Assembly: GCA_019056595.1 (NCBI GenBank) | Contig: CP036163.1 | Coordinates: 2,418,001-2,482,000 of the forward strand | Length of the DNA: 64,000 nt | Reading direction: 5' to 3' | From: Pectobacterium atrosepticum | Lineage (GTDB): Bacteria > Pseudomonadota > Gammaproteobacteria > Enterobacterales > Enterobacteriaceae | Part shown: positions 9,995-26,959 of the stretch, piece by piece | How the letters are laid out: each line of letters starts with the position of its first letter | Numbering within the stretch: position 1 is the stretch's first letter | Made by a program: the position numbers and the translations under genes | The notes under the pieces: model-generated | Databases searched by the model: none | Told to the model about the DNA's origin: nothing | What the model saw: the letters and a program-made list of their open reading frames with translations, nothing else

Positions 9995-12553
9995 CTATAA
10001 GATTTGTAGCCGCTGTTCCATCGTCATCACCTCATCATCCACCACGGGCGTAATGCACAGATGAGAAAGCGCGCTGCTGCGGAACGGAATCACCTGAGTG
10101 CGACCGTCCAACTGTACGATTTGGTAGAACTGCGGCAGGTTAAAATTGATAAAGCTGGAACCATAGGTAAAGCGATCGTGCGAAGACGAATAGAAGCGAC
10201 TGACATCGCGCACCAGCTCTTCTTTACTGCCTTCACAGTGGTGATACACCTCAACACGATTCGACTCATCCAGAATATAGATATTAAAGCCCTGATTTTC
10301 CGTCAGATCTTCAAAGAAAAATTGGATGATCCCTTCGCTGGCGACACCATCGACCACCGGCGGTAAATGCACATGGTTGGTTTCGACCTGAACCGGCTGG
10401 CCTTGCAGCTTGTTGTTGGAAATCGCGCCATAAAATTCGACCGCGTTCTCCAGCTTTTGCACTGACACACTCAGCCGTTCAAAGAACAGCCCCCAAGTTT
10501 GCCCTGCCACTTTCACCGCTTTGAAGCGACCTGGCTCCTGCTGGCGCGTACTGGTCAGACGCAGCTCAATACATTCGGAAACCAGCTGTTGCACGCGAGT
10601 ACGAATCAGCCCGCGCAGGTGCTGGCTATAGCAGAACACTTCCAGTGATTCCGGCAGCGCGGCATCCTGATGCATTTTGCCCAGAATGGTTTTCAGCGCT
10701 TCCAACACTGCCTGCTCACCGCTGAAATGCAGCGTACGCACTTCGTTCCACGAGTTGCGATACAGCAGGTCGATACTGCCAACCAGACACTGCTGCTGCT
10801 GGCCGAAACTGAACACATCCAGATGACGGAAATCGAAATGCACCACCTGATTGCGGAAAGCCGCCGTCGGATCGTGTTCCAGATTGACAATAATCGCCAG
10901 ATGACGAATTTCACACGGGCTGTACAGCGCCTTCGGCGTCGGTGCAGGCACGCGCAGCGGGAAGTGGTTAGCTACATCGTCCACCAGCGCTTGTAAGCGC
11001 GTGATGTCACACAGCTCGTTACCTTTAATGTACAGACGCGTGCTCGGTGTCAGCAGACCATTAAAATACGCCCACGCCACCAGCTTGTTCAGATAGCGAT
11101 TATATTCCAGCGGCTGATGGCTGATGATCGCATCCATCGACGGTGCCTGATTGTACAGATACCAGCCGGAACGGTTCGCACGACCAGGCGGAACATAAAT
11201 AAAGGTTAAATTCGGCTCCGACAAATCGGGCGAAATTTGCGGGTTCAGCAGAGTGACTTTGCCCGGCAGCGCTTCAAACGCGGCATACAGTTTACGGGTC
11301 AACACACCGATATCCTGCGGGCTGGCGCTGACGCTGAGATTATTGCGGCGGGCGAAGCGAATCAGGTTGCGATAAGTCTGCATCATCGCATCCAATAGCT
11401 CATTATGCGCTTCGCGTACCTGTTCGATTTTCCAGTTAGCGCGGTTATCTAACATCGCCAGATGTTCGTCGCTCCAGCCCCACTCTTGTACCAGTTGACT
11501 CAGAATCTGGCGACGCCAGCCGACGCAAGCTTGTTCTCTGGAGAGCTTTTCACAGACTTTTAAATAGAAACATCGACGCGCCAGATCGAGACGCGTTGGG
11601 TCGTTGATCGCCGTTAGGTAGTGCGTTACGCGATCCAACATCATGCAGTAAGGATCGAGACCAAAAGAGACGATCTCGCCGTCATGCAGGCGTTTTTTAA
11701 TTTCGGTCGAAAGCAGGCTGGTATCTGGGTATTCCCAAGAATAGGCTTCCAACAGCAGTGTTTTCAGTACGGCTTTATAAGGGGAATCGATACTTTTATA
11801 GAGCTGCCAAAGGCTCGCGCCGAAATACTCTTCCGCCGACAGCGTACTTAAGCCACCTAAATCCATCCACTCGTTCGGTGCCAGCGCCCCCTGCGAGTAC
11901 AGCGACAGCACATAGTCGTCGTAGTGGGATTCTTCTTCGACCGGCACCATGTTCCACAGAATGCGTTTACCGGCCATGCGCACGGCGGTACGGTAGAATT
12001 CGTCGAGTAACAGAATGTGCTGCATGGAGCCGCAGTCTTCACCGCCCAGACTGCCGCTTTCATTGTGGCGGAAACGGCTTTCATCCATCAGGAAGAAACT
12101 AACCTCAGCGCCCTGCGCTGCTGCCCACTGCTCCAGGAGCGTACATTTCTTCTGTAGGAGTTGGCGCTCTTCGCTATCCAGCCAGGATTGGTGGCACACC
12201 CAGATATCGAGATCGGAGCTACAGCTCTGCCCGATAGACGAGGTGCTCCCCATTGAATAGATGCCGGTGATCGGCAGCTCGCCCTGCGGATGAGAACCGT
12301 CAAACTGGCCCCAGCGCAGCGCGATGCTATCAAGGTATTGTTGTTGCTTTTCATCAGGCGTGTGAGTGCAGACACCGTGAGGCACTTTGCCTTCAAGGTA
12401 GCCGGGCATCAACGGGTGATGATGATGTAATAAAATGGGCAGAAGACTGTAAACCTGCTGAAAAGCGGGCTTCATTGCTCCCAGAGCACGCTCAACACGC
12501 AGTTGGTTGATCGCATCCAGTCTTTGCTTCAAAGTCTCGATGTAGAAGTACAA
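9995..12553 (-). CDS. cyaA: Class I adenylate cyclase CyaA
   Basis: Makes cAMP from ATP; activated by phosphorylated EIIA-Glc of the PTS. 852 residues (E. coli 848). The N-terminal catalytic half carries the nucleotidyltransferase motif [17 protein letters not shown] (102-118) with Asp114 and Asp116; the C-terminal half is the regulatory domain. Only the last 15 or so residues diverge clearly. The start codon is TTG (12553-12551), as in E. coli, where it limits translation. A CRP site lies upstream, giving autoregulation. Confidence 0.98.
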
Positions 12554-12652
12554 GACGTTTCGCCTGATTTATCCCAGTGCCTAGAAAAACCCCATGTTCC
12601 AAATTCGCCAATGATAAAATTAGAAGAATGTTTAGCGAATTATTGCTGGAAA

Positions 12653-12668
12653 CGTGATCAATTTAACA
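12653..12668 (-). promoter_or_regulatory. CRP site in the cyaA promoter
   Basis: On the cyaA strand TGTTAAATTGATCACG, a near-consensus CRP half-site pair (TGTxA-N6-TCACg), about 100 bp upstream of the TTG start. It resembles the repressive CRP site of the E. coli cyaA promoter as I remember it. Confidence 0.8.
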
Positions 12669-12767
12669 CCTTGCTGATTGGGCGTAAAGAAAGTAAAGAA
12701 AGTTAGACTTACCTATCTTGCTTTATTACGAATTTCTCTAACCGACGTCATCAGCACGGCTTCCTTA

Positions 12768-12891
<124 letters not shown>

Positions 12892-12951
12892 CTAGATTTG
12901 CGGCACCCAAATTTCAGTCCGTTTTAAAGGCGCACCGCTAATGCCCACAAC

Positions 12952-12981
12952 CTGACACCAACGCACCATCAATGATACGAT
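12952..12981 (+). promoter_or_regulatory. probable hemC promoter
   Basis: CTGACA (12952-12957), an 18-bp spacer, then TACGAT (12976-12981) preceded by an extended -10 TGa. It overlaps the upstream extension of the hemC open frame, which supports the downstream start at 13011. Confidence 0.5.
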
Positions 12982-13010
12982 GGCGAAAAATGATAAAAAC
13001 GGTATCAAGC

Positions 13011-13952
13011 ATGTTAGCCAATATTATTAGAATTGCCACCCGACAAAGCCCGCTAGCCCTATGGCAAGCACGATATGTTCAGCAGTGTTTGAACCACTTC
13101 TACCCCGATTTACACGTAGAACTGGTGCCGATGGTGACCCGTGGCGACATCATCCTGGATACGCCGCTGGCAAAGGTCGGTGGTAAGGGATTGTTTGTTA
13201 AAGAGCTGGAATTGGCGCTGCTTGAAGGGCGCGCTGATATCGCAGTCCACTCCATGAAAGATGTACCTGTCGAATTTCCCGATGGCCTAGGCCTGACCAC
13301 TATTTGCGAACGCGACGACCCGCGCGATGCTTTTGTTTCCAATCGCTACGACAGCCTCGAACAATTACCGGAAGGCAGCTGTGTCGGCACGTCCAGCCTG
13401 CGCCGCCAGTGCCAGCTACGCGCCCGACGTCCCGATCTGGTGATTCGTGATTTGCGCGGCAATGTCGGAACGCGTCTGGCAAAATTGGACAACGGCGAGT
13501 ATGACGCCATTATTCTTGCTGTCGCTGGCCTGAAACGCCTCGGCCTTGAAGAACGTATCCGCTGCGCGTTAAGCCCGGAAGAATCGCTGCCTGCCGTCGG
13601 ACAAGGCGCTATCGGCATCGAATGCCGTTTGGATGACGATCGCATTCGCCAACTGCTTGCCCCACTCAATCACACCGATACCGCCGCCCGCGTACTGGCT
13701 GAACGTGCTATGAATGTGCGCCTTGAAGGTGGCTGTCAGGTGCCGATTGGCAGCTACGCCGAACTGGAAGGTGATACGCTGTGGTTACGCGCGCTGGTTG
13801 GCGCACCGGATGGCAGCCAAATGATCGTCGGTGAGCGGAAAGGGAGCGTCTCAGACGCCGAAAAAATCGGGGTTGCACTGGCTGAAGAGCTGCTAGCAAA
13901 AGGGGCCAGCGCGATCCTTCAGGCCGTTTATCAAGGGCAAAGCTCATCATGA
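13011..13952 (+). CDS. hemC: Hydroxymethylbilane synthase HemC
   Basis: Polymerises four porphobilinogens to hydroxymethylbilane in heme/siroheme synthesis. 313 residues; the cofactor-attachment Cys is at 242 in [14 protein letters not shown], with conserved [13 protein letters not shown] and HSMKDVP. A frame extension of 13 codons was rejected: [16 protein letters not shown] aligns with the E. coli start, and the extension covers the promoter. Overlaps hemD by four bases (ATGA). Confidence 0.97.
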
Positions 13953-14712: not shown

Positions 14713-15837
14713 ATGACGGAACACAATACCCCCACAGCTCCATCCGATGAGGTTGCTGAACGGGTTGAACCCGCGCATCAGCAGCAAGATCCCGCACCGC
14801 AGCCCAAGCGCAGTGGTGCTGTGCTGGGAGCGATCGCCATCGTGATTGCGCTGGCAATAGGCGCGGGATTGTATTACCACGGCCACCAGCAGGCACAGCG
14901 AGAAACCGCCTCGCTTCAACGTCTGGAATCACAGCTAAACGCCTTGCAGCAACAGCATAAGCAGGAACAACAGCAATGGCTGGATGCTCAACAGCAGCAA
15001 AGCAAAATACAGGACACCGCGACACAGCGTCTTGAGGCGCTAACGCGTCAGTCAGACGAGCTACGCGATAAACTGGCGGCGCTTTCCAGCCATGACACCA
15101 ATACCTGGCTGATCGCTCAGGCAGATTTTCTGGTAAAACTGGCAGGGCGTAAGCTGTGGAGCGACAAAGATGTCACCACCGCGGGCGCATTGTTGAAAAG
15201 CGCAGATGCCAGCCTCGCGGAAATGAACGACCCTAGCCTGATAGAAATTCGCCGCGCGTTGACCAACGATATCGGTGCACTGGCAGGCGTTAGCCAAGTC
15301 GATTTTGACGGCATCATCCTGAAAGTGAACCAGCTCACCGATCAACTTGACAACTTGCAGCTTGCCGACAACAACACCGATGAAGCGCCAATGGATGCCA
15401 ACAGCACAGAGCTGTCCGCTTCGTTGAGCGAATGGCGACAAAATCTGAGCAAAAGCTGGCACAATTTCCTGGCTGACTTTATCACCATTCGTCGTCGCGA
15501 CAGCGCTGCTGAGCCTTTGCTGGCACCGAATCAGGACGTGTATCTGCGTGAGAACATCCGCTCACGTCTGTTGGTTGCCGCACAGGCGATTCCTCGCCAT
15601 CAGAATGAAGTGTACAAACAGTCGTTGGAAACGGCAGCAACCTGGGTTCGCGCCTACTTCGATACCACCGACTCCACGACGCAGGCCTTTTTGGATCAGC
15701 TTGATGCCTTAAGCCAGCAGTCGGTTTCACTGGATGTTCCAACGGAGCTACAAAGTCAGGCGCTGTTGGAAAAGCTGATGCAAACGCGCGTTCGTAACCT
15801 ACTGGCTCAGCCGCCAGCCACACAGCAGGGAGAGTGA
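14713..15837 (+). CDS. hemX: HemX, membrane-anchored heme-operon protein
   Basis: 374 residues. An N-terminal Pro/Gln-rich cytoplasmic stretch (about 1-35), one transmembrane segment (about 37-58, [21 protein letters not shown]), then a long Gln-rich coiled coil and a C-terminal HemX domain. Often labelled uroporphyrinogen-III methyltransferase, but no SAM-binding methylase motifs are seen, so that name is doubtful. ATG 14713 (MTEHNTPT) is preferred over an ATG-less upstream extension at 14698. Between hemD and hemY. Confidence 0.9.
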
Positions 15838-15839
15838 AC

Positions 15840-17033
15840 ATGCTGAAAGTCTTATTGCTGTTCCTGATCCTGATCGCAGGCGTTGTGATCGGCCCGATCG
15901 TCGCGGGCCACCAAGGCTACGTCCTGATCCAGACGGATAACTATGACATTCAAACCAGCGTGACGGGTTTGGTCATCATGCTGGTGCTGTTTTTCCTCGC
16001 CTTTTTGGCGGTGGAGTGGGTGCTACGCCGAATCCTTCGAACAGGATCACGCACACGCGGCTGGTTCCTCGGCCGCAAACGCAGCCGTGCCAGAAAACAG
16101 ACCAAAGCCGCGCTGCTCAAGCTGGCCGAAGGTGATTATTTACAGGTAGAGAAACTGCTGACTCGCAATGCCGATCATGCCGAGCAGCCCGTAGTTAACT
16201 ATCTTTTGGCAGCCGAAGCCGCCCAGCAGCGCGGTGACGAATTCCGCACCAAGCAATACCTGGAGCGTGCCGCCGAGGTTGCAGATACCGATCAGCTTCC
16301 GGTGGATATTACGCGCGTACGTATTCAGCTAGCACGTAATGAAGATCATGCCTCACGTCACGGCGTGGACAAATTGCTGGAAGTCGCACCTCGCCACCCT
16401 GAAGTGCTGCGTCTGGCTGAGCAGGCTTTCCTGCGTACCCATGCCTACGGTGCCTTGCTGGATATTCTGCCTGCGATGCGCAAGATTAATCTGTACCCTG
16501 AAGCGCGTTTGCTGGATCTGCAACAGCGGGCCTATATCGGTCTGATGAATCAGGCGATGGCGGATGGCGGCAGCGAAGGGCTGAAATCATGGTGGAATAA
16601 TCAGAGCCGCAAAGTGCGTCATGAGATCCCACTTCAGATCGCAATGGCTGAGCATTTGATCGAGTGTGACGATCATGATACAGCACAGAAGATCATTCTT
16701 GATGGTCTCAAACGTCAGTATGACGAGCGTTTGATTCTGCTAATGCCCCGCCTAAAAGCTGGCAATCCGGAACAGCTGGAAAAAATGCTGCATCAGTACA
16801 TCAAGCAACATGGCGCAACGCCGCTGTTAAGCAGCACGTTAGGTCAACTACTGATGAAACACGGCGAATGGCAACAGGCCAGCGATGCCTTCCGCACGGC
16901 GCTGGAGCTACGTCCAGATGCTTATGATTACGCCTGGCGCGCCGACGCACTAGAGCGGCTGCATCTGCCGGATGAAGCGGCGCAAATGCGGCGTGAGGGG
17001 CTGTTACTCACGCTACAGCAACCAGCCAACTAA
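15840..17033 (+). CDS. hemY: HemY, TPR-containing inner-membrane protein
   Basis: 397 residues: two membrane spans (about 2-20 and 42-62), a basic cytoplasmic linker (RKRSRARKQ), and TPR repeats through the rest. Thought to act with HemX as scaffolds for late porphyrin enzymes. Not related to the protoporphyrinogen oxidase also named HemY. ATG 15840 gives the E. coli start MLKVLLLF; a GTG two codons upstream overlaps the hemX stop. Confidence 0.94.
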   Translation: MLKVLLLFLILIAGVVIGPIVAGHQGYVLIQTDNYDIQTSVTGLVIMLVLFFLAFLAVEWVLRRILRTGSRTRGWFLGRKRSRARKQTKAALLKLAEGDYLQVEKLLTRNADHAEQPVVNYLLAAEAAQQRGDEFRTKQYLERAAEVADTDQLPVDITRVRIQLARNEDHASRHGVDKLLEVAPRHPEVLRLAEQAFLRTHAYGALLDILPAMRKINLYPEARLLDLQQRAYIGLMNQAMADGGSEGLKSWWNNQSRKVRHEIPLQIAMAEHLIECDDHDTAQKIILDGLKRQYDERLILLMPRLKAGNPEQLEKMLHQYIKQHGATPLLSSTLGQLLMKHGEWQQASDAFRTALELRPDAYDYAWRADALERLHLPDEAAQMRREGLLLTLQQPAN

Positions 17034-17054
17034 TCACTGCATCATCTCTTTCAT

Positions 17055-17087
17055 AAGGCTCCTTCTTTGGAGCCTTATTTATTTTTT
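17055..17087 (+). terminator. hemCDXY operon terminator
   Basis: AAGGCTCC-TTCTTT-GGAGCCTT stem (17055-17076) followed by ATTTATTTTTT, 22 nt past the hemY stop. Confidence 0.88.
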
Positions 17088-17129
17088 ATGTTTCAATCGC
17101 AGGCTGTGACCCAGCATTTTCATCAGACG

Positions 17130-17340
17130 AAAAAAAACGCTTACCGATAAACGGTAAGCGTTGAAAATATCAGGTCTGTCAGACAACAGAATGGTGCCTC
17201 ACTCAACGTTATGTCCGGAAAGCCCGATGGAGATTTGCATCTTCATCTGGAGTTGGACGATAGGCACCTCAAAATTGGCTCTGCGTCATTCCCAGGATTA
17301 TGAAGCCGAAGCAAGCATAGAAGGTGGAATGAGCATCTAC
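17130..17340 (-). ncRNA. glmZ: Small RNA GlmZ
   Basis: A 211-nt sRNA that, with Hfq, base-pairs to and activates glmS mRNA; its decay is controlled by RapZ/RNase E and by its decoy GlmY. The 5' end GTAGATGCTCATTCC, the internal GGAATGACGCAGAGCC, the region CAACGTTGAGTGA and TGTTGTC..ACAGACCTG near the glmS-pairing site, and the position downstream of hemY all match E. coli glmZ as I recall it. The 3' end is an 11-bp terminator hairpin (17136-17162, AACGCTTACCG arms) followed by a T-run. The short rightward open frame across this region is antisense and spurious. Confidence 0.93.
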
Positions 17341-17346
17341 ACGCTT

Positions 17347-17368
17347 ATTTAAGCACAAATTATGCCAA
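17347..17368 (-). promoter_or_regulatory. overlapping sigma54 and sigma70 promoters of glmZ
   Basis: On the glmZ strand TTGGCATAATTTGTGCTT has GG (17366-17365) and GC (17354-17353) separated by exactly 10 nt, the sigma54 -24/-12 signature. The -12 C lies 12 nt before position 17341. TTAAAT (17352-17347) is placed as a sigma70 -10 for the same start. Overlapping sigma54/sigma70 promoters are known for glmY/glmZ in several Enterobacteriaceae. Confidence 0.82.
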
Positions 17369-17501
17369 CATGCATAATTTTATTGCTACGACCTCATCAA
17401 TTCAATTTAACTAGCTAATAGTAAATACTATTTTTATTTATCCGCTAGTGGGGAAGCAACAACACGCTGGGTGGTAAAAACGAGAGCGAACTCACAAAAC
17501 C

Positions 17502-17519
17502 TGTCGCCATTCAGAGACG
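17502..17519. promoter_or_regulatory. GlrR-like enhancer site 1 (one mismatch)
   Basis: TGTC-N10-GACg, matching the GlrR consensus TGTC-N10-GACA except the last base. About 160-180 bp upstream of the glmZ start. Confidence 0.6.
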
Positions 17520-17549
17520 AATTTATCAGATAAAATATTAATCATTATT

Positions 17550-17562
17550 AATCAATAAATTA
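17550..17562 (+). promoter_or_regulatory. IHF site between GlrR-like sites and glmZ promoter
   Basis: AATCAATAAATTA is a perfect match to WATCAANNNNTTR. DNA bending here would bring the two upstream activator sites to the sigma54 promoter. IHF dependence is known for sigma54 glmY/glmZ promoters. Confidence 0.65.
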
Positions 17563-17564
17563 AA

Positions 17565-17582
17565 TGTCTCTTTTTTGAGACA
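17565..17582. promoter_or_regulatory. GlrR-like enhancer site 2
   Basis: TGTCTCTTTTTTGAGACA: perfect TGTC-N10-GACA, with the arms extending to TGTCTC/GAGACA. Confidence 0.75.
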
Positions 17583-17597
17583 GCAGATCACCGCAGG

Positions 17598-17615
17598 TGT
17601 CGTTCTTTTCCGACA
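17598..17615. promoter_or_regulatory. GlrR-like enhancer site 3
   Basis: TGTCGTTCTTTTCCGACA: perfect TGTC-N10-GACA, about 260-275 bp upstream of glmZ, with symmetric inner CG bases (TGTCG/CGACA). Confidence 0.75.
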
Positions 17616-17641
17616 GTCCTGTCAAAGCTGTTGATTCAGCT

Positions 17642-17687
17642 TAAAAAATAAAAAAATATCCGCGCCGAGGAGTCGACGCGGATAGCA
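17642..17687 (-). terminator. terminator of the lyase/ABC/M20 operon
   Basis: On the leftward strand TATCCGCG (17687-17680) ... CGCGGATA (17665-17658), enclosing a 14-nt loop, then TTTTTTTATTTTTT. Lies 19 nt past the M20 gene stop, so the operon ends here and does not read into glmZ. Confidence 0.85.
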
Positions 17688-17705
17688 TTAAGTAACAGGT
17701 GGGAC

Positions 17706-18866
17706 TTAACGGGAGGACAGCTGTTCTAAACTCTGTTTAGCGACCTGATACAGATAGTGTGCGGTCGGGAACAGTGCACTGTCGTCAACGCGGAATTTCG
17801 GGTGGTGCAGCGCATAGGGTCCGCCGGAGCCAACCATCATAAAAGTACCCGGCAGTTTCTGCTGATAGAACGCAAAATCTTCACCAATCGGGCTGGCTTC
17901 GACGCGGCGTGCTTCAAAACCTTCATCACTTGCCACGTTCAGCGCAAACTCAACCCATTCTGGCGTATTGATCACTGATGGCGGCCCTGCGTGCCACAGG
18001 AACTCAATTTCCGCGCCAAAGCTGCTGGCAATACCCGAGACGATCTGACGGAAACGCTGTTCAATCAAATCACGCGTGTCCTGATTGAACGTTCGGACCG
18101 TGCCTTCAACGTAGGCCGTGTCGGGAATAACGTTCCAAGTGCTACCGCTATGGACCTGAGTAATCGACACCACTGCGTTATTGTCGGACGACACCGTGCG
18201 GCTGATGATGGTTTGCACCGCGGAAATCAGCTGACCCAGAATAATAATCGGATCGTTGCCTTCATGCGGCTTCGCCGCGTGACAGCCTTTCGCTGCAATC
18301 TTGATCTCAAAACGGTCAACGCCCGCCGTCAACGCACCGTCTTTCCCACCGATGACGCCAACGGGCAGCGTCGGATCGTTATGGATACCGAAAATCGCCA
18401 CCGCATTGTCCAACGCGCCAACCGCAATCACTTCCGGTGCACCCAGCCCTGTCTCTTCGGCCGCCTGGAACAAAATTCGCACCGTGCCTTTCAGCTCCGG
18501 CTCGATTTTCTTCAGCAGAATCGCCGCGCCCAGCGCTGCGGAAGAGTGAAAATCATGACCGCAGGCATGCATCACCCCTTTGTTGAGCGACGTGAATTCT
18601 ACGCCAGACTCTTCTTCAATTGGCAGGGCATCGATGTCCGAACGGACCACGACCAGTGGGCCATCCTGTAGGCCGCCGACTTCCGCGACCAGACCGGTTT
18701 TCAACGGCAGATCGAGGACGCGAATCCCTTCTTTTTCCAATACCGCACGAATCTTTTTCGTCGTTTCGAACTCCTGATTCGACAGTTCAGGATTGCGGTG
18801 TAAATCGTGGCGAAACGCCTGAATAAATTGAGCCAGAGGCTCGTGCTGAGGTGCTGTTCTCATCAA
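17706..18866 (-). CDS. M20-family amidohydrolase (N-acyl amino acid deacylase type)
   Basis: 386-residue cytosolic metallo-amidohydrolase of the M20D (hippurate/N-acetyl-amino-acid hydrolase) group. Metal-site residues are visible: Cys102 and His104 in HACGHDFH, the acidic pair Glu136-Glu137 in QAAEETG, His161 in FGIHND, and the C-terminal His in YALHHPKF. In the Bacillus yxe and ytm/snd sulfur operons, such an enzyme (YxeP, SndA) removes an N-acetyl group from a processed cysteine derivative. Last gene of the leftward six-gene operon; the same role is inferred here. No signal peptide. Confidence 0.88.
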   Translation of the reverse strand: MMRTAPQHEPLAQFIQAFRHDLHRNPELSNQEFETTKKIRAVLEKEGIRVLDLPLKTGLVAEVGGLQDGPLVVVRSDIDALPIEEESGVEFTSLNKGVMHACGHDFHSSAALGAAILLKKIEPELKGTVRILFQAAEETGLGAPEVIAVGALDNAVAIFGIHNDPTLPVGVIGGKDGALTAGVDRFEIKIAAKGCHAAKPHEGNDPIIILGQLISAVQTIISRTVSSDNNAVVSITQVHSGSTWNVIPDTAYVEGTVRTFNQDTRDLIEQRFRQIVSGIASSFGAEIEFLWHAGPPSVINTPEWVEFALNVASDEGFEARRVEASPIGEDFAFYQQKLPGTFMMVGSGGPYALHHPKFRVDDSALFPTAHYLYQVAKQSLEQLSSR

Positions 18867-18940
18867 TTCTTACTCCACATTATCGTGCCCTGTCTGACAG
18901 GACGGCCTTGTTCAGGCGTGCAGGTGTGTCTACGTGTGCG

Positions 18941-19702
18941 TTAAATATCGTACTCAAGCGGCTCAGGCAGTTTGGTCAACTGACGCAAGAAACGCTGGGT
19001 TTGCGGGTTGTCTGAGAAGCTAATCACCTGCTCCGCAGGGCCTTCCTCGACGATGTGACCGTCCGCCATGAAGATCACTCGGTCAGCCACTTCTTTCGCA
19101 AACTGCATTTCATGGGTGACGATCACCATCGTGGTGTCATTTTTCGCCAGCTTCTGAATCACCTGAAGCACCTCGTGTACCCTTTCTGGGTCAAGCGCCG
19201 AAGTTGGTTCATCAAACAAAAGAGCCTTCGGATCCACCGCCAGCGCACGTGCAATACTCACGCGCTGCTGCTGACCGCCGGATAACGTCACCGGATACTG
19301 TGCCGCCTGTGGCAGCAGGCCAACCTGCTCCAGCAAAGCCAGACCGACTTCAGTCGCCTGCTTCTTCGGCATTTTTTTCACGACAATCAGCGCTTCCGTT
19401 ACATTCTCCAGCGCCGTCTTGTTCTTAAACAGGTTATAACTCTGGAACACCATCGCCGTCTGACGGCGCAGCGCGTAGGCCTCCTTGGAGGAGTAACGAC
19501 GCGTATCCAGCGTTTGTTCACCAATTTCGATCGTACCTGACTCTGGCGTTTCCAGCAGGTTAAGGCAACGCAGCAGCGTGGATTTACCCGAACCCGATGG
19601 ACCGATAATCGCCACGACTTCGCCTTTCGCGATATCCAGACTAATGTTGTCCAACACCACCTGATCGCCAAAGCGTTTAGAAAGATTCTTTACACTGATC
19701 AT
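18941..19702 (-). CDS. Amino-acid ABC transporter ATP-binding protein
   Basis: 253 residues. Walker A GPSGSGKS (34-41), Q-loop MVFQSYNLF, signature LSGGQQQRVSIARAL, Walker B ALLFDEPTSALD, switch His in VTHEM. Typical of the polar amino acid uptake (HisP/GlnQ/YxeO/TcyN) class, including cystine importers. Nine nt downstream of the permease stop, 74 nt upstream of the M20 gene. Confidence 0.95.
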   Translation of the reverse strand: MISVKNLSKRFGDQVVLDNISLDIAKGEVVAIIGPSGSGKSTLLRCLNLLETPESGTIEIGEQTLDTRRYSSKEAYALRRQTAMVFQSYNLFKNKTALENVTEALIVVKKMPKKQATEVGLALLEQVGLLPQAAQYPVTLSGGQQQRVSIARALAVDPKALLFDEPTSALDPERVHEVLQVIQKLAKNDTTMVIVTHEMQFAKEVADRVIFMADGHIVEEGPAEQVISFSDNPQTQRFLRQLTKLPEPLEYDI

Positions 19703-19711
19703 GTCAGCCCC

Positions 19712-20395
19712 TTATCGCTGTAGCGAGTGATTCAGTTTCTTCTCAAGCTGTTTTTGCAGCCAAGCGTAAACCACAATCACCATCCAGTAAATCAGACCCA
19801 CAACCAAGAAGGTCTCAAAGAAACGCAGAGATTCAGCGGCAATCATCTTGCCTTCTGCGAACAGTTCGGAGACGCCCAGCGCAAAGGCCACTGAGGTATC
19901 TTTAATCAGAGAAATAAAGGTATTACCCGTCGCTGGCAGCGCATTCAGCATTGCTTGAGGCAACACGATGCGGCGATAGACCTGCGCTTTACTCATGCCA
20001 ATGGACAGGCCCGCTTCCGTCTGGCCGAAATCCACCGAGGCCAAGCCCGCACGGAAAATCTCAGCCATATAGGCGGAGGTTTTCAAGCTAAAGCCAATAA
20101 TTGCGGCCGTCATCGCATCCAGATTGGATAAGCCAGGGAATAGCTGTGGCAGGCCGAAGTAGATGATAAACAGCTGAACCAGCGATGGAATGCCGCGGAA
20201 CAGCGAGATATACAGTTCGACGATTTTTACTACGACGACGATCTTGCTTTCACGGACTAACGCCAAGATAAGGCCGAGAACCATAGCAAAAAACATCGAA
20301 ACCACGGCAAGAAACAGCGTGGTTGGCAAATACATTAATACCTGGGGAAAGACTTTTAACAGGTAGGCAAGATCGATATTCATGAGTAATACCAT
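19712..20395 (-). CDS. Amino-acid ABC transporter permease
   Basis: About 227 residues, about five membrane spans, with the EAA-type loop around AGLSIGMSKAQVYRRIVLPQA that contacts the ATPase. HisM/GlnP/YxeN class of polar amino acid uptake permeases, acting as a homodimer. Start is ambiguous: ATG 20395 has GGTGGAAG upstream and is preferred; GTG 20407 and ATG 20383 are alternatives. The Shine-Dalgarno region lies inside a hairpin (20402-20429). Confidence 0.92.
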   Translation of the reverse strand: MVLLMNIDLAYLLKVFPQVLMYLPTTLFLAVVSMFFAMVLGLILALVRESKIVVVVKIVELYISLFRGIPSLVQLFIIYFGLPQLFPGLSNLDAMTAAIIGFSLKTSAYMAEIFRAGLASVDFGQTEAGLSIGMSKAQVYRRIVLPQAMLNALPATGNTFISLIKDTSVAFALGVSELFAEGKMIAAESLRFFETFLVVGLIYWMVIVVYAWLQKQLEKKLNHSLQR

Positions 20396-20401
20396 TAATG
20401 C

Positions 20402-20429
20402 TTCCACCGGCCATATTGCGCCGGTGGAA
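20402..20429 (-). promoter_or_regulatory. intercistronic hairpin covering the permease ribosome-binding site
   Basis: Perfect 10-bp stem TTCCACCGGC / GCCGGTGGAA with an 8-nt loop. On the mRNA the 3' arm contains GGTGGAA, the probable Shine-Dalgarno of the permease. Stem-loops after binding-protein genes commonly protect that part of the mRNA, so binding protein outnumbers permease; here the stem may also lower permease translation. Confidence 0.65.
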
Positions 20430-20452
20430 CAGGGTTATGACTGTTGACTATA

Positions 20453-20506
20453 TAACGAATCATCTGGCTACATAACGAGTCATCACGCTAAATGACGACT
20501 CTGCCA
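20453..20506. repeat. 20-bp imperfect tandem repeat in the operon
   Basis: ATAACGAATCATCTGGCTAC (20453-20472) and ATAACGAGTCATCACGCTAA (20473-20492), then a decayed third unit (ATGACGACTCTGCC). Located in the 127-nt spacer between binding-protein and permease genes. Confidence 0.6.
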
Positions 20507-20522
20507 GAATGACGGCGTGAGG

Positions 20523-21314
20523 TTATTTAGCCGGTGATACCGTGATATCTTCGCCAAAATATTTTTCGGAGATAGATTTCAGACGTCCATCTTCACGCAT
20601 TTTCGTCAATTGTGCATCGAACTGTTTACGCAAGGCATCGCCTTTCTCGTCCTTATGGAACGGGAAGCTGACTTCTTCAATCACCAGCGGTTCGCCAACC
20701 AGCTTGAACGGCAGGTTACGCTTATTGATTTCCGCCAACAGGATCGGACGTGAATTCACGTAGCCTTCGACGCGCTTAGACAGCGCATCGTTCATCGCAC
20801 CATCACGTGTTTCATAGGTGCGAATAGTGACGCTGCCGTCGGCAAATGCTTTCTTCAGGTTGTTGACGTGGTTGGAACCCAGGACCCCGGCAACCGTCTT
20901 CCCTTTCAGGTCAGCCAACGTATTGATCGTGGTGTTGTCTTTGTGCGTCACAATCTGGCTGCCGTAGAAGCTGTACGGCTGGGCAAAATTGTATTTTTCC
21001 TGACGCGCGGGGGTAATTGCCACCACGTTCGCTACAGTATCCAGCTTTTTCGCTTCCAACTGCCCCATCAGGCCGCTGAAATCAGCGGTGACCCACTCAA
21101 CTTTGTAGTTCAGATCTTTCGCGATAGCTTCCGTGACTTCAACGTCAAACCCAACCAGCTTGTTATCTTGCTTGAAACCACTTGGATAACTCTGGCCTGT
21201 TGAACCCACTTTCAATACTTTTTCCTGCTCGGTGCCACTCTTCCCAGAATCACAGCCAGCAACAAGAAAGGCGGTCGTCAGCGCCAGAACAGACAACGTT
21301 ACTTTTTTCATCAT
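20523..21314 (-). CDS. Amino-acid ABC transporter substrate-binding lipoprotein
   Basis: 263 residues of the family 3 solute-binding class (FliY/YxeM/HisJ-like). The signal peptide ends in a lipobox, LVAGC (Cys21), so it is predicted to be lipid-anchored rather than free in the periplasm, which is less common for Gram-negative members. Conserved features: VGFDVEVTEAIAKDLNYKVEWV and the KYFGEDIT end. ATG 21314 overlaps the acetyltransferase stop (ATGATG/TGA), coupling the two. Ligand is not deducible; context suggests a modified sulfur amino acid. Confidence 0.93.
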   Translation of the reverse strand: MMKKVTLSVLALTTAFLVAGCDSGKSGTEQEKVLKVGSTGQSYPSGFKQDNKLVGFDVEVTEAIAKDLNYKVEWVTADFSGLMGQLEAKKLDTVANVVAITPARQEKYNFAQPYSFYGSQIVTHKDNTTINTLADLKGKTVAGVLGSNHVNNLKKAFADGSVTIRTYETRDGAMNDALSKRVEGYVNSRPILLAEINKRNLPFKLVGEPLVIEEVSFPFHKDEKGDALRKQFDAQLTKMREDGRLKSISEKYFGEDITVSPAK

Positions 21315-21853
21315 TTTACTGCCTCTCTTTTTAAGTTTTTATCTTTCCACTGGTCATACAATTGGTTATCAAGAATTTTTTCCATCCAGATGGTCAGGTG
21401 TCCTTTTCCCAGATTCGTCTGCCCGACTTCCTTGAAACCATAATTTCTGTACATCTCAATCAGCCACGGGTGGTTTTGCGCTGTGCCAAGCGACACCGCA
21501 GGCGCTTTGAGCTGGTTAATCAGAATTTCTTCTTCCAACCAGCTCATCATTTGCTTACCCAATCCCTGTTTTTTATAGCCAGGGTGCGTCGCAAACCAAC
21601 CCAGATGCGGTAGACCGAGCGGGCCCGGCTCAGGCCCCCACGGATAGCGGATGGTAAATGACGACACCATCTCCCCGCCTTTTTCCATCACATAAACGCC
21701 GTGTGAGGCAATGTGCGTGCGCACCATGCCAATATCTGCATGGGCGGCAGAAAAATTGATGCCCAACTGGCGAATCGGCTCAAACGCGGCCAATGCCAGC
21801 GCCAAAAAAGTCTCATCATCCGCAAGCGTAGCCTGACGAAATACGATACTCAT
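21311..21853 (-). CDS. GNAT-family N-acetyltransferase
   Basis: 180 residues. The acetyl-CoA-binding motif A is visible in WFATHPGYKKQGLGKQMM (Q/RxxGxG/A form), followed by MYRNYGFKEVG typical of motif B. Corresponds by context to YxeL/SnaA-type acetyltransferases that N-acetylate S-substituted cysteines in Bacillus sulfur operons. It lies 9 nt after the lyase gene and overlaps the binding-protein gene. Confidence 0.88.
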   Translation of the reverse strand: MSIVFRQATLADDETFLALALAAFEPIRQLGINFSAAHADIGMVRTHIASHGVYVMEKGGEMVSSFTIRYPWGPEPGPLGLPHLGWFATHPGYKKQGLGKQMMSWLEEEILINQLKAPAVSLGTAQNHPWLIEMYRNYGFKEVGQTNLGKGHLTIWMEKILDNQLYDQWKDKNLKREAVK

Positions 21854-21862
21854 GATTTCACC

Positions 21863-23227
21863 TTATGCTGGCAGCAGACCGGAGTTATCCGCATAGCGAA
21901 TCACCTCATCGACTTTCTGCGGTGCACTGCCGACGTAGTTGGCTGGGTTCAGCCATTCGTCCAGATCGGCGGCAGTCACCTGCTCGGAAAGGACTGGATG
22001 CGCCAACAGTACCGATTTAAAAGGCTGATTCTGCTCGAATGCCTGCATAGAGCATTCGTAAACCAGATGGTGGGCGGTCTGCTTACCGAGACGTTTGCCA
22101 ATCTCAAACATCACTTTCTCGGATAACAACAGGCCATTTTGCAGATCGAGGTTCGCCAGCATTTGCTTCTCGTTGACGGACATTCCACGCAGGATGCCAA
22201 GCGCATTCTGAAGCTGAGCAGACAGATAGATGTTGATTTCTGGCAGCGCGATCCACTCTGCACGCCAGCTCATCGCATCACGTTCATGCTCAACTTTCAT
22301 GGATTCGTGAATCAGCGCGGCGCTCTTAAACAGCGGTGCAGTCAAGCTCGCCAGCCCTTCCAACGCGGCAGGGTTACGTTTGTGCGGCATCGTGGTAGAA
22401 CCGATTTTCCCTTCAGAGAACGGCTCTTCGATTTCATTAATCTCGGTGCGCATCAGGTTGTACAGCTCGTTGCCAATCTTGCCCAGCGTACCGCTGATCA
22501 GAACCGTAACGGAGGCATATTCGGAGAAGCGATCGCGGGCAGACTGCCAGCCGATATTCGGTGTATTCAGCCCCAGTTTATCCAGCGTCAGGCGCTCAAT
22601 TTCTGGCCCTTTCTCGCCAAAAGAGGCATAGGTACAAATGGCACCATTGATGTTGCCGACCAAAACACGCTCTTTGATTTCACCCAGGCGTTCGAGGTGA
22701 CGGATAAATTCATCCAGCCAGACAGCCAGTTTGAAGCCAAACGTGGTGGGCAGCGCTTGCATGCCGTGGGTACGGCCAGCCATCAGCGTGTGTTGATGTT
22801 TCTTCGCCAAACGTTTCAGTTCAACGGCCAGCAGTTGTGTATCTCTGACGACAATATCAAAAGATTGTTTCAGTTGTAACACTGTCGCGGTATCAACGAT
22901 GTCCTGCGTGGTCACGCCGTAATGAATAAATTCACCCGCCGCGCCACATTGTCTCTGAATCGCTGCAATCGTCGGCATCAGGGAGTGCTTCATGCGTGCC
23001 GCATCTTTTGCAATCTCTTCAACGTTAAGCGCGCTTGCGTCAGCGTTTTCTGCAATGGTTTTTGCCGCATCCAGCGGAATGACACCCAGTTCACCCTCGG
23101 CAAGCGCCAAGGCAACTTCTACCTCGACCTGCTTAGTCAGACGGTTATGCTCGGACCAGACGCCGCGCATTTCAGGCGTGCCAAAATTATTCCCTATAAG
23201 AAGAAAATCAATAAGATGTGATGCCAT
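21863..23227 (-). CDS. Aspartase/fumarase-superfamily lyase (adenylosuccinate-lyase-like)
   Basis: 454 residues. Superfamily signature GSTTMPHKRNP at 276-286, GRTHGMQALPTTFG (151-164) and YGVTTQDIVDTA (103-114). The family eliminates fumarate from C-N (or C-S) succino compounds. It is distinct from housekeeping PurB, which lies elsewhere in enterobacteria and has different flanks. First gene of an operon with an amino-acid importer, GNAT acetyltransferase and M20 deacylase. That set matches the S-(2-succino)cysteine lyase pathway as I recall it: fumarate released from (N-acetyl-)2-succinocysteine. Substrate is inference from context. Confidence 0.88.
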   Translation of the reverse strand: MASHLIDFLLIGNNFGTPEMRGVWSEHNRLTKQVEVEVALALAEGELGVIPLDAAKTIAENADASALNVEEIAKDAARMKHSLMPTIAAIQRQCGAAGEFIHYGVTTQDIVDTATVLQLKQSFDIVVRDTQLLAVELKRLAKKHQHTLMAGRTHGMQALPTTFGFKLAVWLDEFIRHLERLGEIKERVLVGNINGAICTYASFGEKGPEIERLTLDKLGLNTPNIGWQSARDRFSEYASVTVLISGTLGKIGNELYNLMRTEINEIEEPFSEGKIGSTTMPHKRNPAALEGLASLTAPLFKSAALIHESMKVEHERDAMSWRAEWIALPEINIYLSAQLQNALGILRGMSVNEKQMLANLDLQNGLLLSEKVMFEIGKRLGKQTAHHLVYECSMQAFEQNQPFKSVLLAHPVLSEQVTAADLDEWLNPANYVGSAPQKVDEVIRYADNSGLLPA

Positions 23228-23327
23228 AATTAACTCGTTAGTGTTGGATTTATCAGGCGGGGGTTTATGTCGTCTTTTTAATTTTTAAAAATATAACATG
23301 CGGTAATTATGCGCTTTATACCTTTCG

Positions 23328-23362
23328 GATCTATCTTAGATCAAAAAGTTTGATTGCAAACT
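23328..23362. promoter_or_regulatory. two adjacent inverted repeats in the lyase/phosphatase spacer
   Basis: GATCTA-TCT-TAGATC (23328-23342) and AGTTTG-ATTG-CAAACT (23347-23362) lie 4 bp apart in the divergent 248-bp spacer. They are candidate operators for the lyase operon or the phosphatase; no regulator gene is adjacent. Confidence 0.4.
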
Positions 23363-23475
23363 ATGCATTTGGAAATGTTCGCTAACACTCTCTCCCGTAT
23401 TGAAAAACCCGCTTGTCACTTTTTCCTTCCTACAATGAAACTCCTTATCCGTATGACTGCTGACGAAGGATTATC

Positions 23476-24783
23476 ATGCTTTTCCACACGACATTACGCA
23501 TGCCCCGTACCTTATTGATTACCATGATCATTATTTCAACATTCGCTGCTCAGGCACGAGCCCAGGATCGCTACCTGATGGAAAAGGTGGTTGAAGTTAG
23601 CCGTCATGGCGTTCGTCCCCCGACAGAATCCAACACAACCGCACTGGAGTCCGGCACGGCACGACAATGGCCGCAGTGGGTCACGCGAGAGGGTGAATTA
23701 ACCGGACATGGCTATGCCGCCACCGTGATAAAAGGACACTATGAGGGCGAGTATTATCGCCAACAGCATCTGTTCGCTTCAGGTTGCCCAGCGGAACAGC
23801 AGATTTATGTACTTGCCAGCCCGTTACAGCGCACCCGCGCAACCGCGCAAGCTTATATGGACGGCATGTTTCCCGGCTGCGGCGTTACTACACATGCCGT
23901 TGAGGATGAAAAGCAAGATCCGCTGTTCCACGGCGATAAAATGGGGATTGGCACGCTTGATCCTGAACAGGCAAAAGCTGCTGTACTGAAAGCCATGGGA
24001 GGCGATCTGGATCTCGCTTATCAACGTCTGAAGCCCAGTATTGAGCAGCTAAAACAGATCGTATGTGGAGAAGATAAACCCTGTCCGGTGTTTGATAAAC
24101 CGTGGGCGCTCAAACAGGATAAAGACGGTTCGACTTCTATCAGCGGCCTGAATACGCTGGCGAATATGAGTGAAGTTTTCCTGCTGGAGTACAGCGAAAA
24201 TTTGCCACTGGCACAGGTTGCTTTTGGTCACGTCCGCAGCGCACAGGATCTTATTCCCCTGATGGCTCCGATGACCGCCAAATACGACTTCACCAATGAT
24301 GTTCCCTACATTGCACAGCGTGGCGGTTCACTATTGATGCAGCAAATCGCACAGGCACTCGCGCAAGGGACGCAAGCAGAGCAGGACACCACACAAGGCG
24401 AGCCGCCGACAGCCCCTTACTTGCTGTATGTCGCGCATGACACCAACATTGCCTACCTGCGCACGCTGTTGCAGTTTCACTGGCAACTACCCGGCGATAC
24501 CGCCGATAACATCCCACCCGCAGGCAGTCTGGTCTTTGAGCGCTGGCGCGATACCACGACTCAGCAGCGTTTTTTGCGTATTTATTTCCAGACACAGTCG
24601 CTGGATCAGATTCGTTCGCTGACGCCGCTGGGCGAGCAACAGCCGTTGCTGAAAGAGGAATTTACGTCTCAGAGCTGTCAGCAGACAGAAAAAGGCACGC
24701 TGTGTCCTTTTGATACGACGCTGGAATCCATGCGGAAAAGTATCGATAGCAGTGCGCTGGCAACGGTACATTACGCGCCGTAG
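23476..24783 (+). CDS. Periplasmic histidine acid phosphatase (phytase/AppA-Agp type)
   Basis: 435 residues. An N-terminal signal peptide is probably cleaved after ARA (about residue 29). Catalytic RHGVRPP at 43-49 gives the phospho-histidine; the C-terminal proton donor is in AHDTN. Several Cys pairs fit periplasmic disulfides. HDTN and the following PGDTADNIPPAGSLVFERW are closer to AppA phytase than to Agp glucose-1-phosphatase, but activity cannot be assigned firmly. A plant-associated bacterium could use it on phytate. Monocistronic and divergent from the lyase operon. Confidence 0.9.
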   Translation: MLFHTTLRMPRTLLITMIIISTFAAQARAQDRYLMEKVVEVSRHGVRPPTESNTTALESGTARQWPQWVTREGELTGHGYAATVIKGHYEGEYYRQQHLFASGCPAEQQIYVLASPLQRTRATAQAYMDGMFPGCGVTTHAVEDEKQDPLFHGDKMGIGTLDPEQAKAAVLKAMGGDLDLAYQRLKPSIEQLKQIVCGEDKPCPVFDKPWALKQDKDGSTSISGLNTLANMSEVFLLEYSENLPLAQVAFGHVRSAQDLIPLMAPMTAKYDFTNDVPYIAQRGGSLLMQQIAQALAQGTQAEQDTTQGEPPTAPYLLYVAHDTNIAYLRTLLQFHWQLPGDTADNIPPAGSLVFERWRDTTTQQRFLRIYFQTQSLDQIRSLTPLGEQQPLLKEEFTSQSCQQTEKGTLCPFDTTLESMRKSIDSSALATVHYAP

Positions 24784-24804
24784 CTCGATCTCCTGAGGAG
24801 AAGC

Positions 24805-24840
24805 AACGTCTTGTCGGGTTGATGAATCCGATAGGACGTT
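24805..24840 (+). terminator. hairpin after the phosphatase gene
   Basis: 13-bp stem AACGTCTTGTCGG / CCGATAGGACGTT (two G-U pairs, valid only on the rightward strand) with a 10-nt loop. No U-run follows, so its terminator role is tentative. Confidence 0.4.
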
Positions 24841-24865
24841 TGCAAGAGAAGGCAGATTTAAGACG

Positions 24866-24896
24866 AAAAAAAGCACATCTTTCGATGTGCTTTTTT
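24866..24896. terminator. bidirectional terminator at the end of the tRNA operon
   Basis: AAGCACATC-TTTC-GATGTGCTT stem (24871-24892), with A-run to the left and T-run to the right; serves the leftward tRNA transcript and possibly the rightward phosphatase transcript. Confidence 0.85.
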
Positions 24897-24903
24897 CTGT
24901 AAT

Positions 24904-24980
24904 TGGTCGGCGAGAGAGGATTCGAACCTCCGACCCACTGGTCCCAAACCAGTTGCGCTACCAAGCTGCGCTACTCGCCG
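24904..24980 (-). tRNA. proM: tRNA-Pro (anticodon TGG)
   Basis: 77 nt including encoded CCA. CGGCGAG acceptor stem, GGTTCGAATCC T-arm, and anticodon loop TTTGGGA. Last tRNA of a four-gene cluster whose order equals E. coli argX-hisR-leuT-proM. Confidence 0.98.
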
Positions 24981-25023
24981 AATGTACTGCTTTTTGAACA
25001 TCACTGATGTTCTAGCTTGTGTG

Positions 25024-25110
25024 TGGTGCGAAGAGAGGGACTTGAACCCTCACGTCCGTAAGAACACTAACACCTGAAGCTAGCGCGTCTACCAATTCCG
25101 CCACCTTCGC
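25024..25110 (-). tRNA. leuT: tRNA-Leu (anticodon CAG)
   Basis: 87 nt with encoded CCA. GCGAAGG acceptor stem, long variable arm of a class II tRNA, anticodon CAG. Reads CUG, the dominant Leu codon. Confidence 0.98.
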
Positions 25111-25159
25111 ATAACTCACAAACTTTTATTAACGAAAAACGTTAATGAACTGCTAAATC

Positions 25160-25236
25160 TGGGGTGGCTAATGGGACTCGAACCCACGACAACTGGAATC
25201 ACAATCCAGGGCTCTACCAACTGAGCTATAGCCACC
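25160..25236 (-). tRNA. hisR: tRNA-His (anticodon GTG)
   Basis: 77 nt with encoded CCA. The extra 5' G (G-1) opposite C73, the identity element of tRNA-His, is encoded. Confidence 0.98.
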
Positions 25237-25351
25237 ATCACCACATTTACATCTTATTACGCGGTACATCCTTTTTACGGGATACTTTCTTTACGAAGGT
25301 AAGTGTACCACCGCAGCTCTTGCACACAACATACTCGTTTACACAATATAA

Positions 25352-25428
<77 letters not shown>

Positions 25429-25449
25429 TTAGCGCCGTTGCGGGACGGG

Positions 25450-25478
25450 ATATTACGGACTTAGCGACTGACTGTCTA
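25450..25478 (-). promoter_or_regulatory. tRNA operon promoter
   Basis: On the leftward strand TAGACA (25478-25473), 17-bp spacer, TAATAT (25455-25450), then a GC-rich discriminator (CCCGTCCCGC) typical of stringently controlled stable-RNA promoters. Confidence 0.7.
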
Positions 25479-25570
25479 GTGCTTTTTTATCGAAATGATG
25501 CGTTTGCTTATGCTTTGTCCATTTCAAGCTAAATAACGTACAAATCCGCTCTTCCCGCCCCCAAATACGA

Positions 25571-26959
25571 CTATTTACCCCCTGCCAGCGACGTTTTTTT
25601 ACCCAATCCCAGCGCGAAATAACACAGGCTGACCACGGCTAAAAAGGCGACACCGACCAATAAAGACATTCGCGTATCGATATTTATATACATTCCCACC
25701 AGTACACACAGCAAAAATGCCATCGTCAGGTAGTTTACCCACGGGAACAGTATCGATTTAAACGGATGTGAGGCCAACGCGACACGATGCTGCTCACGAA
25801 AACGTAGTTGACTGATCAACACCACAAACCACGGCACCATACCCGGCAACACGCTGGCGCTATAAACATAAACAAACACTTTTTCCGGGTTAGGGATGAC
25901 GTAATTCAAAAGCGACCCAGCCACCAGACAAAGAATAGAAATCATGACGCCTGCTGCGGGTACACCGCTGGCCGTCACTTTACCTAGCCAGGCAGGAAGT
26001 TGACGGTTGTTAGCCAGCGAATACAGCATGCGACCACAGCTATACATGCCGCTGTTGCAGCCAGACAGCGCGGCCGTCAGCACCACAAAGTTGATGATGC
26101 CTGCCGCCGCCACAATACCGATTTTCGCAAACGTCAGCACAAACGGGCTGCCGGATGTACCGATTTCATTCCAGGGGAAAATCGTGACGATAACGAAGAT
26201 AGCGCCCACATAGAAAATCAGGATGCGCCACAGAATGTTATTGATCGCGCGCTTCAGCGTCACCTGCGGATTTTTCGCCTCGCCTGCCGTAATCCCCACC
26301 AGCTCAACGCCCTGATAGGACGCCACCACCAGACACAGCGCGAACAGCAGACCTTTCCAGCCTCCCGCAAGGAAGCCGCCGTGCTCGGTCAGGTTACTGA
26401 ATCCGGTCGCCTGACCGTGATTACCGAAGCCGAAGAAGATAATACCGACGCCGACTAATATCATCACGACGATGGTGGTGATTTTAATCATCGCAAACCA
26501 GAATTCGATTTCGCCATACAGCCTTACCGCAGCGAGATTTGCGCCCGCGACCAAAGCGACAGCGACAATCGCCGGTATCCACTGTGGCAGTTCAGGGAAC
26601 CAATACTGAACATACACGCCAATGGCGGTAATTTCCGAAATCCCGACCGCCATCCACATAAACCAATAGCCCCATGCGGTGAGATAACCGAAAAAGGGAT
26701 GCATGTATTTATGTGCGTAGACGGCAAACGATCCTGCGACCGGCTCTAGGTAGAGCATTTCGCCCATTGAACGCATGATGAAGAAAACGAAGATTCCAGC
26801 AACAATATAGGCCAGTAATACCGACGGTCCCGCCCACTTCAACGCACTCGCTGCGCCCATAAACAGCCCGACGCCGATCGTGCCACCTAGCGCAATCAGC
26901 TCAATATGTCGGGCTTCCAACCCTCGATGGAGTTTTTCCTGCTTTACATCTTCTGCCAT
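25571..26959 (-). CDS. yifK: Amino acid permease YifK (ThrP)
   Basis: 462-residue, 12-span APC-family symporter. From start ([21 protein letters not shown]) through the last spans it tracks E. coli YifK, reported as a threonine/serine importer (ThrP). The conserved GTIGVGLF and the [21 protein letters not shown] block are present. Only the cytoplasmic C-tail differs. Located immediately upstream of argX, as in E. coli; read-through into the tRNAs is possible because no terminator is visible between them. Confidence 0.94.

Follow-up and report, generated by a model that had tools for sequence, protein, structure and literature searches.

A six-gene operon of Pectobacterium atrosepticum is very probably an orthologue of the known lyase-type clusters for salvage of succinated cysteine

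Results and Discussion

We analyzed a stretch of 64,000 nucleotides of Pectobacterium atrosepticum DNA (GenBank assembly GCA_019056595.1, contig CP036163.1, positions 2,418,001 to 2,482,000; hereafter the window), focusing on six open reading frames (ORFs) which all lie on the minus strand inside positions 17706-23227 and encode, from 5' to 3' along the operon, a lyase, a GNAT acetyltransferase, a binding lipoprotein, a permease, an ATPase and an M20 amidohydrolase. Gene content, gene order and orthology of the lyase to an assayed enzyme place these genes with clusters built around S-(2-succino) lyase (2SL), and the operon is, judged from its sequence, very probably a 2SL-type scm/yxe cluster that salvages succinated cysteine, i.e., a counterpart of a known pathway. 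As a description of this pathway appeared in 2022, the operon represents an orthologue rather than a new pathway; it is an ordinary, well-conserved copy of a known system, and its novelty is low. Its interest lies in the damage that succination does to cysteine when fumarate builds up, for which only a few salvage routes have been described.

For Dickeya dadantii and for Enterococcus italicus, Hillmann et al. 2022 (PMC9706529) describe 2SL enzymes that stand in for YxeK, the monooxygenase of yxe clusters, and cleave N-acetyl-2-succinocysteine to fumarate and N-acetylcysteine. The E. italicus enzyme assayed was that of strain DSM 15952, and a Bacillus subtilis yxeK mutant regained growth on S-(2-succino)cysteine (2SC) with 2SL. 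N-acetyl-2SC was used more efficiently than 2SC, by a factor of approx. 60 for the D. dadantii enzyme and 320 for the E. italicus enzyme, and, although several small thiols were accepted, N-acetylcysteine and N-acetyl-2SC were the best substrates tested. ScmP (YxeP) is an N-acetylcysteine deacetylase with high specificity (PMC12757645). The work on D. dadantii agrees with the statement, in a preceding sequence-only reading of the window, that a lyase-based 2SC route exists in related soft-rot bacteria; the name Pectobacterium is absent from the main text of PMC9706529, and the genus could be represented among the 27 2SL loci that the paper leaves unnamed.

If the published functions are transferred to the operon on the basis of orthology and gene order, the ABC transporter would import 2SC and the GNAT protein would N-acetylate it, after which the lyase would release fumarate from N-acetyl-2SC by beta-elimination and leave N-acetylcysteine, which the M20 protein would deacetylate to cysteine. 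Since the equilibrium of 2SL lies on the side of the adduct (PMC9706529), a later step must pull the lyase reaction, and removal of the product could do so. All substrates, and the direction in which the pathway runs in this organism, are thus predicted from relatives. The sequence-only reading had the lyase free fumarate from 2SC with or without an N-acetyl group; clade and gene order support this, and the strong preference of the published enzymes narrows the likely substrate to N-acetyl-2SC.

Identity of the lyase

The lyase (21863..23227, minus strand; 454 amino acids) is a member of the fumarase/aspartase superfamily with the Pfam domains Lyase_1 and ADSL_C, and it keeps the superfamily loop GSxxMPxKxNP. 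Its alignment with the E. italicus DSM 15952 gene (locus L053) covers 454 residues and gives 62.8% identity. For Dickeya, the comparison was made with the genus set of Dickeya oryzae, which shares its genus name with the assayed D. dadantii enzyme; each of the nine genomes contained one lyase match at E <= 1e-150, with 88-90% identity.

A lyase scan of named genomes yielded 59 loci (L006-L064), including 11 named Pectobacterium loci in which the lyase is 98-99% identical. To place the window lyase, a tree was calculated from 42 sequences, i.e., the window lyase, lyases from 24 of the 59 loci (L063 included), two plasmid loci representing possible 2SL genes and 15 other members of the superfamily. 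The window lyase was located inside a 2SL clade of 25 sequences (support 98/98), together with the E. italicus gene and sequences from Clostridiaceae, Aerococcus, Pasteurellaceae, Orbaceae and Enterobacterales. All five PurB sequences, two PcaB sequences, one XcbD sequence, a 40% identical paralogue of the lyase and sequences labelled ArgH and AspA (labels guessed from positions in TIGR00928 match lists, the sequences themselves being unscanned) fell outside this clade. A Variovorax sequence with 47% identity (L126), entered as a possible 2SL, also fell outside and grouped with the XcbD sequence (92/85). The separation from PurB and from the ArgH-labelled sequences, on which the sequence-only reading had hinged, was thus recovered. 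Moreover, all 25 sequences of the 2SL clade carry the N-terminal motif NNF, at the place where all five PurB sequences have R-Y. The R-Y pair of PurB contacts the nucleotide phosphate.

PcaB was rejected as the identity of the lyase, which scored 266.2 bits with the PcaB model TIGR02426 (cut-off 355.75) and does not fall into the branch formed by both PcaB sequences. ArgH and AspA were rejected as well, given the position of the sequences so labelled (by guess) outside the 2SL clade. The 40% paralogue (L134 5917-9802; G000:C2 near 4757493) itself scores barely above the cut-off of the PcaB model (356.4 vs. 355.75) and, by eye, has as neighbors a gene for a DASS anion symporter and a divergently oriented one for a GntR-type regulator.

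Conservation of gene order

Allowing gaps of up to 2600 nt, the order lyase-GNAT-binding protein-permease-ATPase-M20 was found in 34 of the 59 loci, including E. italicus and two named Dickeya loci (L019 and L020), which indicates that the grouping of the six genes is more than chance. Some genes match in pieces in L021 and L022, and the broken lyase copies of L062 and L064 were counted by pieces. Three Pasteurellaceae loci among the 34 (L048, L058, L060) have approx. 1.3 kb between the ATPase and M20 genes; in Haemophilus seminalis (L058) this space is filled by an MmgE/PrpD gene (12214-13536).

The remaining loci fall into three groups. In 14 loci no M20 gene follows the ATPase gene; these represent 13 Orbaceae loci (L026, L029-L031, L034, L035, L037, L039, L040, L042, L045, L050 and L056) and the Clostridiaceae locus L054, which has a weak M20 match before the lyase. 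The 13 Orbaceae loci (12 from Gilliamella, one from Zophobihabitans) keep the other five genes and show no M20 match within the locus, the only region searched. Seven loci have the set lyase-GNAT-M20, and four have other or shorter sets. In Klebsiella michiganensis (L033 9917-15262), lyase-GNAT-M20 is followed by an MmgE/PrpD-family gene, which we take to be YxeQ-like, and a convergent ABC transporter.

The operon thus resembles the 2SL-type clusters of E. italicus DSM 15952 and D. dadantii in having the same six genes in the same order (compared through the E. italicus and the two Dickeya loci); it differs from them in its host genus, its diverged GNAT protein and its local regulatory DNA. 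With the yxeKLMNOPQ (scm) operon of B. subtilis it shares the roles of acetyltransferase, transporter and M20 deacetylase (YxeP being the one protein compared by sequence), but a lyase takes the place of YxeK and none of the six genes is a YxeQ gene. Neither the six genes nor, on inspection by eye, the ORFs in the list for positions 15000-26000 include a yxeK gene, a search in which the YxeK sequence itself was not compared. The replacement of the Bacillus monooxygenase by a lyase, as proposed from the sequence, is the same exchange that PMC9706529 reports.

Points against the assignment and alternative functions

A number of observations weigh against a 2SL-type salvage operon. As many as 25 of the 59 loci are without one or more of the six genes in order, and the GNAT protein is only 38% identical (over 156 residues) to the GNAT protein at the same place in E. 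italicus. The tree used 24 of the 59 loci and its program warned that branches are long beyond the 2SL clade, and the D. dadantii protein (UniProt E0SKP1) was left out of the alignments. In addition, the lyase scores 370.5-370.7 bits with the PurB model TIGR00928, above the cut-off of 326.2, and its XcbD kin work on a sulfonate adduct.

The last of these points would fit an operon that runs the same salvage scheme on another S-adduct, e.g., of another unsaturated acid, as its natural substrate instead of 2SC. Sequence alone cannot reveal the substrate, and the acceptance of several small thiols by 2SL enzymes (PMC9706529) points the same way; however, clade and gene order are kept, and the lyase is orthologous to enzymes with N-acetylcysteine or N-acetyl-2SC as the best substrate tested. 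We therefore consider another natural adduct improbable.

XcbD, or 3-sulfopropionylcysteine synthase, shares the superfamily and thioether chemistry with the lyase, and its model (NF052536) was the second-best NCBIfam model for the window protein, with 441 bits (cut-off 600). As XcbD is named for making its product, the lyase might likewise run synthetically, from thiol and fumarate, and the reported equilibrium of 2SL on the adduct side (PMC9706529) would favor this direction. By contrast, the import and deacylase genes of the operon point to breakdown, and the XcbD sequence (L122; 37.7% identical to the lyase and passing the XcbD model with 695 bits) is encoded in a cluster with a phosphosulfolactate synthase gene and lies outside the 2SL clade. 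A synthetic role is therefore very hard to credit. XcbD was also rejected as the identity of the lyase, given the score below the cut-off and the position of the XcbD sequence in the tree.

The TIGR00928 score and the annotation as purB of four orthologues on Pantoea plasmids (one region read, L125 7001-8371) would agree with a second adenylosuccinate lyase, the name that automatic annotation would give, but the other protein of the genome that passes the TIGR00928 cut-off is a separate PurB, with 508.5 bits, E. italicus carries both a PurB and a 2SL gene, all five PurB sequences lie outside the 2SL clade and the lyase has NNF in place of R-Y; PurB was therefore rejected, despite its model being passed, and a second PurB is scarcely conceivable. 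With the 2SL-type assignment, acceptance of 2SL by TIGR00928 explains the label of the Pantoea copies, which is likely a mislabel; a dedicated 2SL model would correct purB names on such genes.

Operon layout and accessory proteins

ORFs and Pfam domains agree with the six-gene leftward set and the protein classes named in the sequence-only reading, the domains backing the expected class for all six proteins. NCBIfam models gave related families for five of the six proteins, with most scores under the model cut-offs. The junctions, from 5' to 3' along the operon, measure 9 nt, a 4-nt overlap, 115 nt, 9 nt and 74 nt; the tight spacing that had been described for most junctions thus holds for three of the five, while the other two are wider.

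The GNAT N-acetyltransferase (21311..21853, minus strand; Pfam Acetyltransf_7/1/10) presumably has a ScmL/YxeL-like role; neither an NCBIfam model nor, at E 1e-3, a solved structure matched it. The binding lipoprotein (20523..21314, minus strand; SBP_bac_3), with a lipobox LVAGC in its translation and a probable YxeM-like role, is 67% identical over 229 residues to its E. italicus counterpart in L053, and among the NCBIfam models it scores highest with that of a cystine binding protein (146.7 vs. a cut-off of 312). The permease (19712..20395, minus strand; BPD_transp_1; probably YxeN-like in role) shows 62% identity over 223 residues and the ATPase (18941..19702, minus strand; ABC_tran; probably YxeO-like in role) 66% over 247 residues with the same locus; the best NCBIfam model for the ATPase is TcyN (313.8 vs. 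a cut-off of 406).

The M20 amidohydrolase (17706..18866, minus strand; TTG start, with an in-frame ATG at 18863) is predicted to be a ScmP/YxeP-like N-acetylcysteine deacetylase. It is 54% identical to the E. italicus protein and scores above the cut-off of TIGR01891. Its best match among solved structures is Bacillus YxeP (1ysj; E 4.4e-117, residues 18-381 of 386), and the alignment keeps HACGHD, AEE, the H of G-x-H-N and HHP, presumably the metal-ligand motifs shared by the two proteins.

A shared terminator had also been proposed. Downstream of the M20 stop, an intrinsic-terminator-like hairpin with a 12-pair stem and a T-run (17657..17684, minus strand) supports this and has the most pairs among eight terminator-like matches, but the number of such matches was not above that in shuffled sequences (mean 7.4). 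The promoter scan returned a single match, at 17405-17377 and thus outside the operon, as compared to 6.0 expected in shuffles, and therefore says nothing for a promoter.

Distribution of the lyase and a second cluster in the genome

Each of the 24 genomes sampled from the genus (own genome included) carries the lyase, with at least 98% identity, suggesting that 2SC salvage may be a constant feature of these soft-rot bacteria. Other families of the order were represented by 16 genomes, none of which came near 98%, the best match showing 31% identity (E 4e-66), and in an even family sample eight of 149 genomes (own genome included) had a match at E <= 1e-180. Overall, the lyase looks fixed in the genus and patchy around it. 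Copies with 60-80% identity occur on four plasmid records, all from Pantoea.

The genome also contains an M20 gene (TIGR01891) together with a gene for a YtnJ-like flavin mononucleotide (FMN) monooxygenase (E 2e-169 to YtnJ), at approx. 516-524 kb of G000:C2 (L133 10365-17800). The monooxygenase is the sole protein of the genome above the cut-off of TIGR03860 and lies approx. 1.9 Mb from the operon; the neighbors, named by eye, are a flavin reductase, two binding proteins, a GNAT protein and a permease. In both clusters M20, GNAT, binding protein and permease genes surround a breakdown enzyme, which is a lyase in the operon and an FMN monooxygenase in the second cluster. Two routes for S-modified cysteine, one of the lyase type and one of the monooxygenase type, thus seem to coexist in the organism, with the function of each predicted from similarity.

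Candidate regulatory DNA

A palindrome, GATCTA-AGA-TAGATC (23328..23342, minus strand), located 101-115 nt upstream of the lyase start, represents a candidate operator. GATCTA-N3-TAGATC occurs as a single exact copy in the 5.04-Mb genome; with one mismatch allowed, four places were found as compared to two for the reversed control, which weighs against the palindrome. Upstream of 57 loci (L006-L062; L063 and L064 left out), the exact palindrome was found in 16, at -112 to -115, all from Pectobacterium, Brenneria or Samsonia. One locus (L008) had one mismatch, three (Symbiopectobacterium) had two, and two Dickeya loci had three and four; the other 35 had four or five, the level of shuffled letters, so that with the two Dickeya loci 37 of the 57 matched at chance level. 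As most of the 150 nt upstream are conserved within Pectobacterium, conservation of the palindrome there is weak evidence, and the case depends mainly on Brenneria and Samsonia. One could speculate that the palindrome serves as operator for a regulator not yet described, whose dedicated task is to sense succinated cysteine or a lack of cysteine, and that the cell splits thiol salvage between the oxygen-independent lyase cluster and the oxygen-requiring YtnJ-type cluster, although we regard this as unlikely.

Folding also predicted a stem-loop with nine pairs and a loop of eight just before the permease start (20403..20428, minus strand). A stem at this place was predicted in the window and in all 22 loci folded (22 of the 59; folded without a shuffle control), and its position is kept while the arm sequences differ among Pectobacterium, Brenneria and Dickeya. 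Stems of this kind can raise expression of a binding protein over that of the permease. As the GTG at 20407, with which the permease begins in the ORF list, lies inside the 3' arm of the stem-loop, the ATG at 20395 or 20383 is a likelier start; with the former, the gap between the binding protein and permease genes is 127 nt. The divergent neighbor of the operon (23476-24783) encodes a branch-2 histidine phosphatase.

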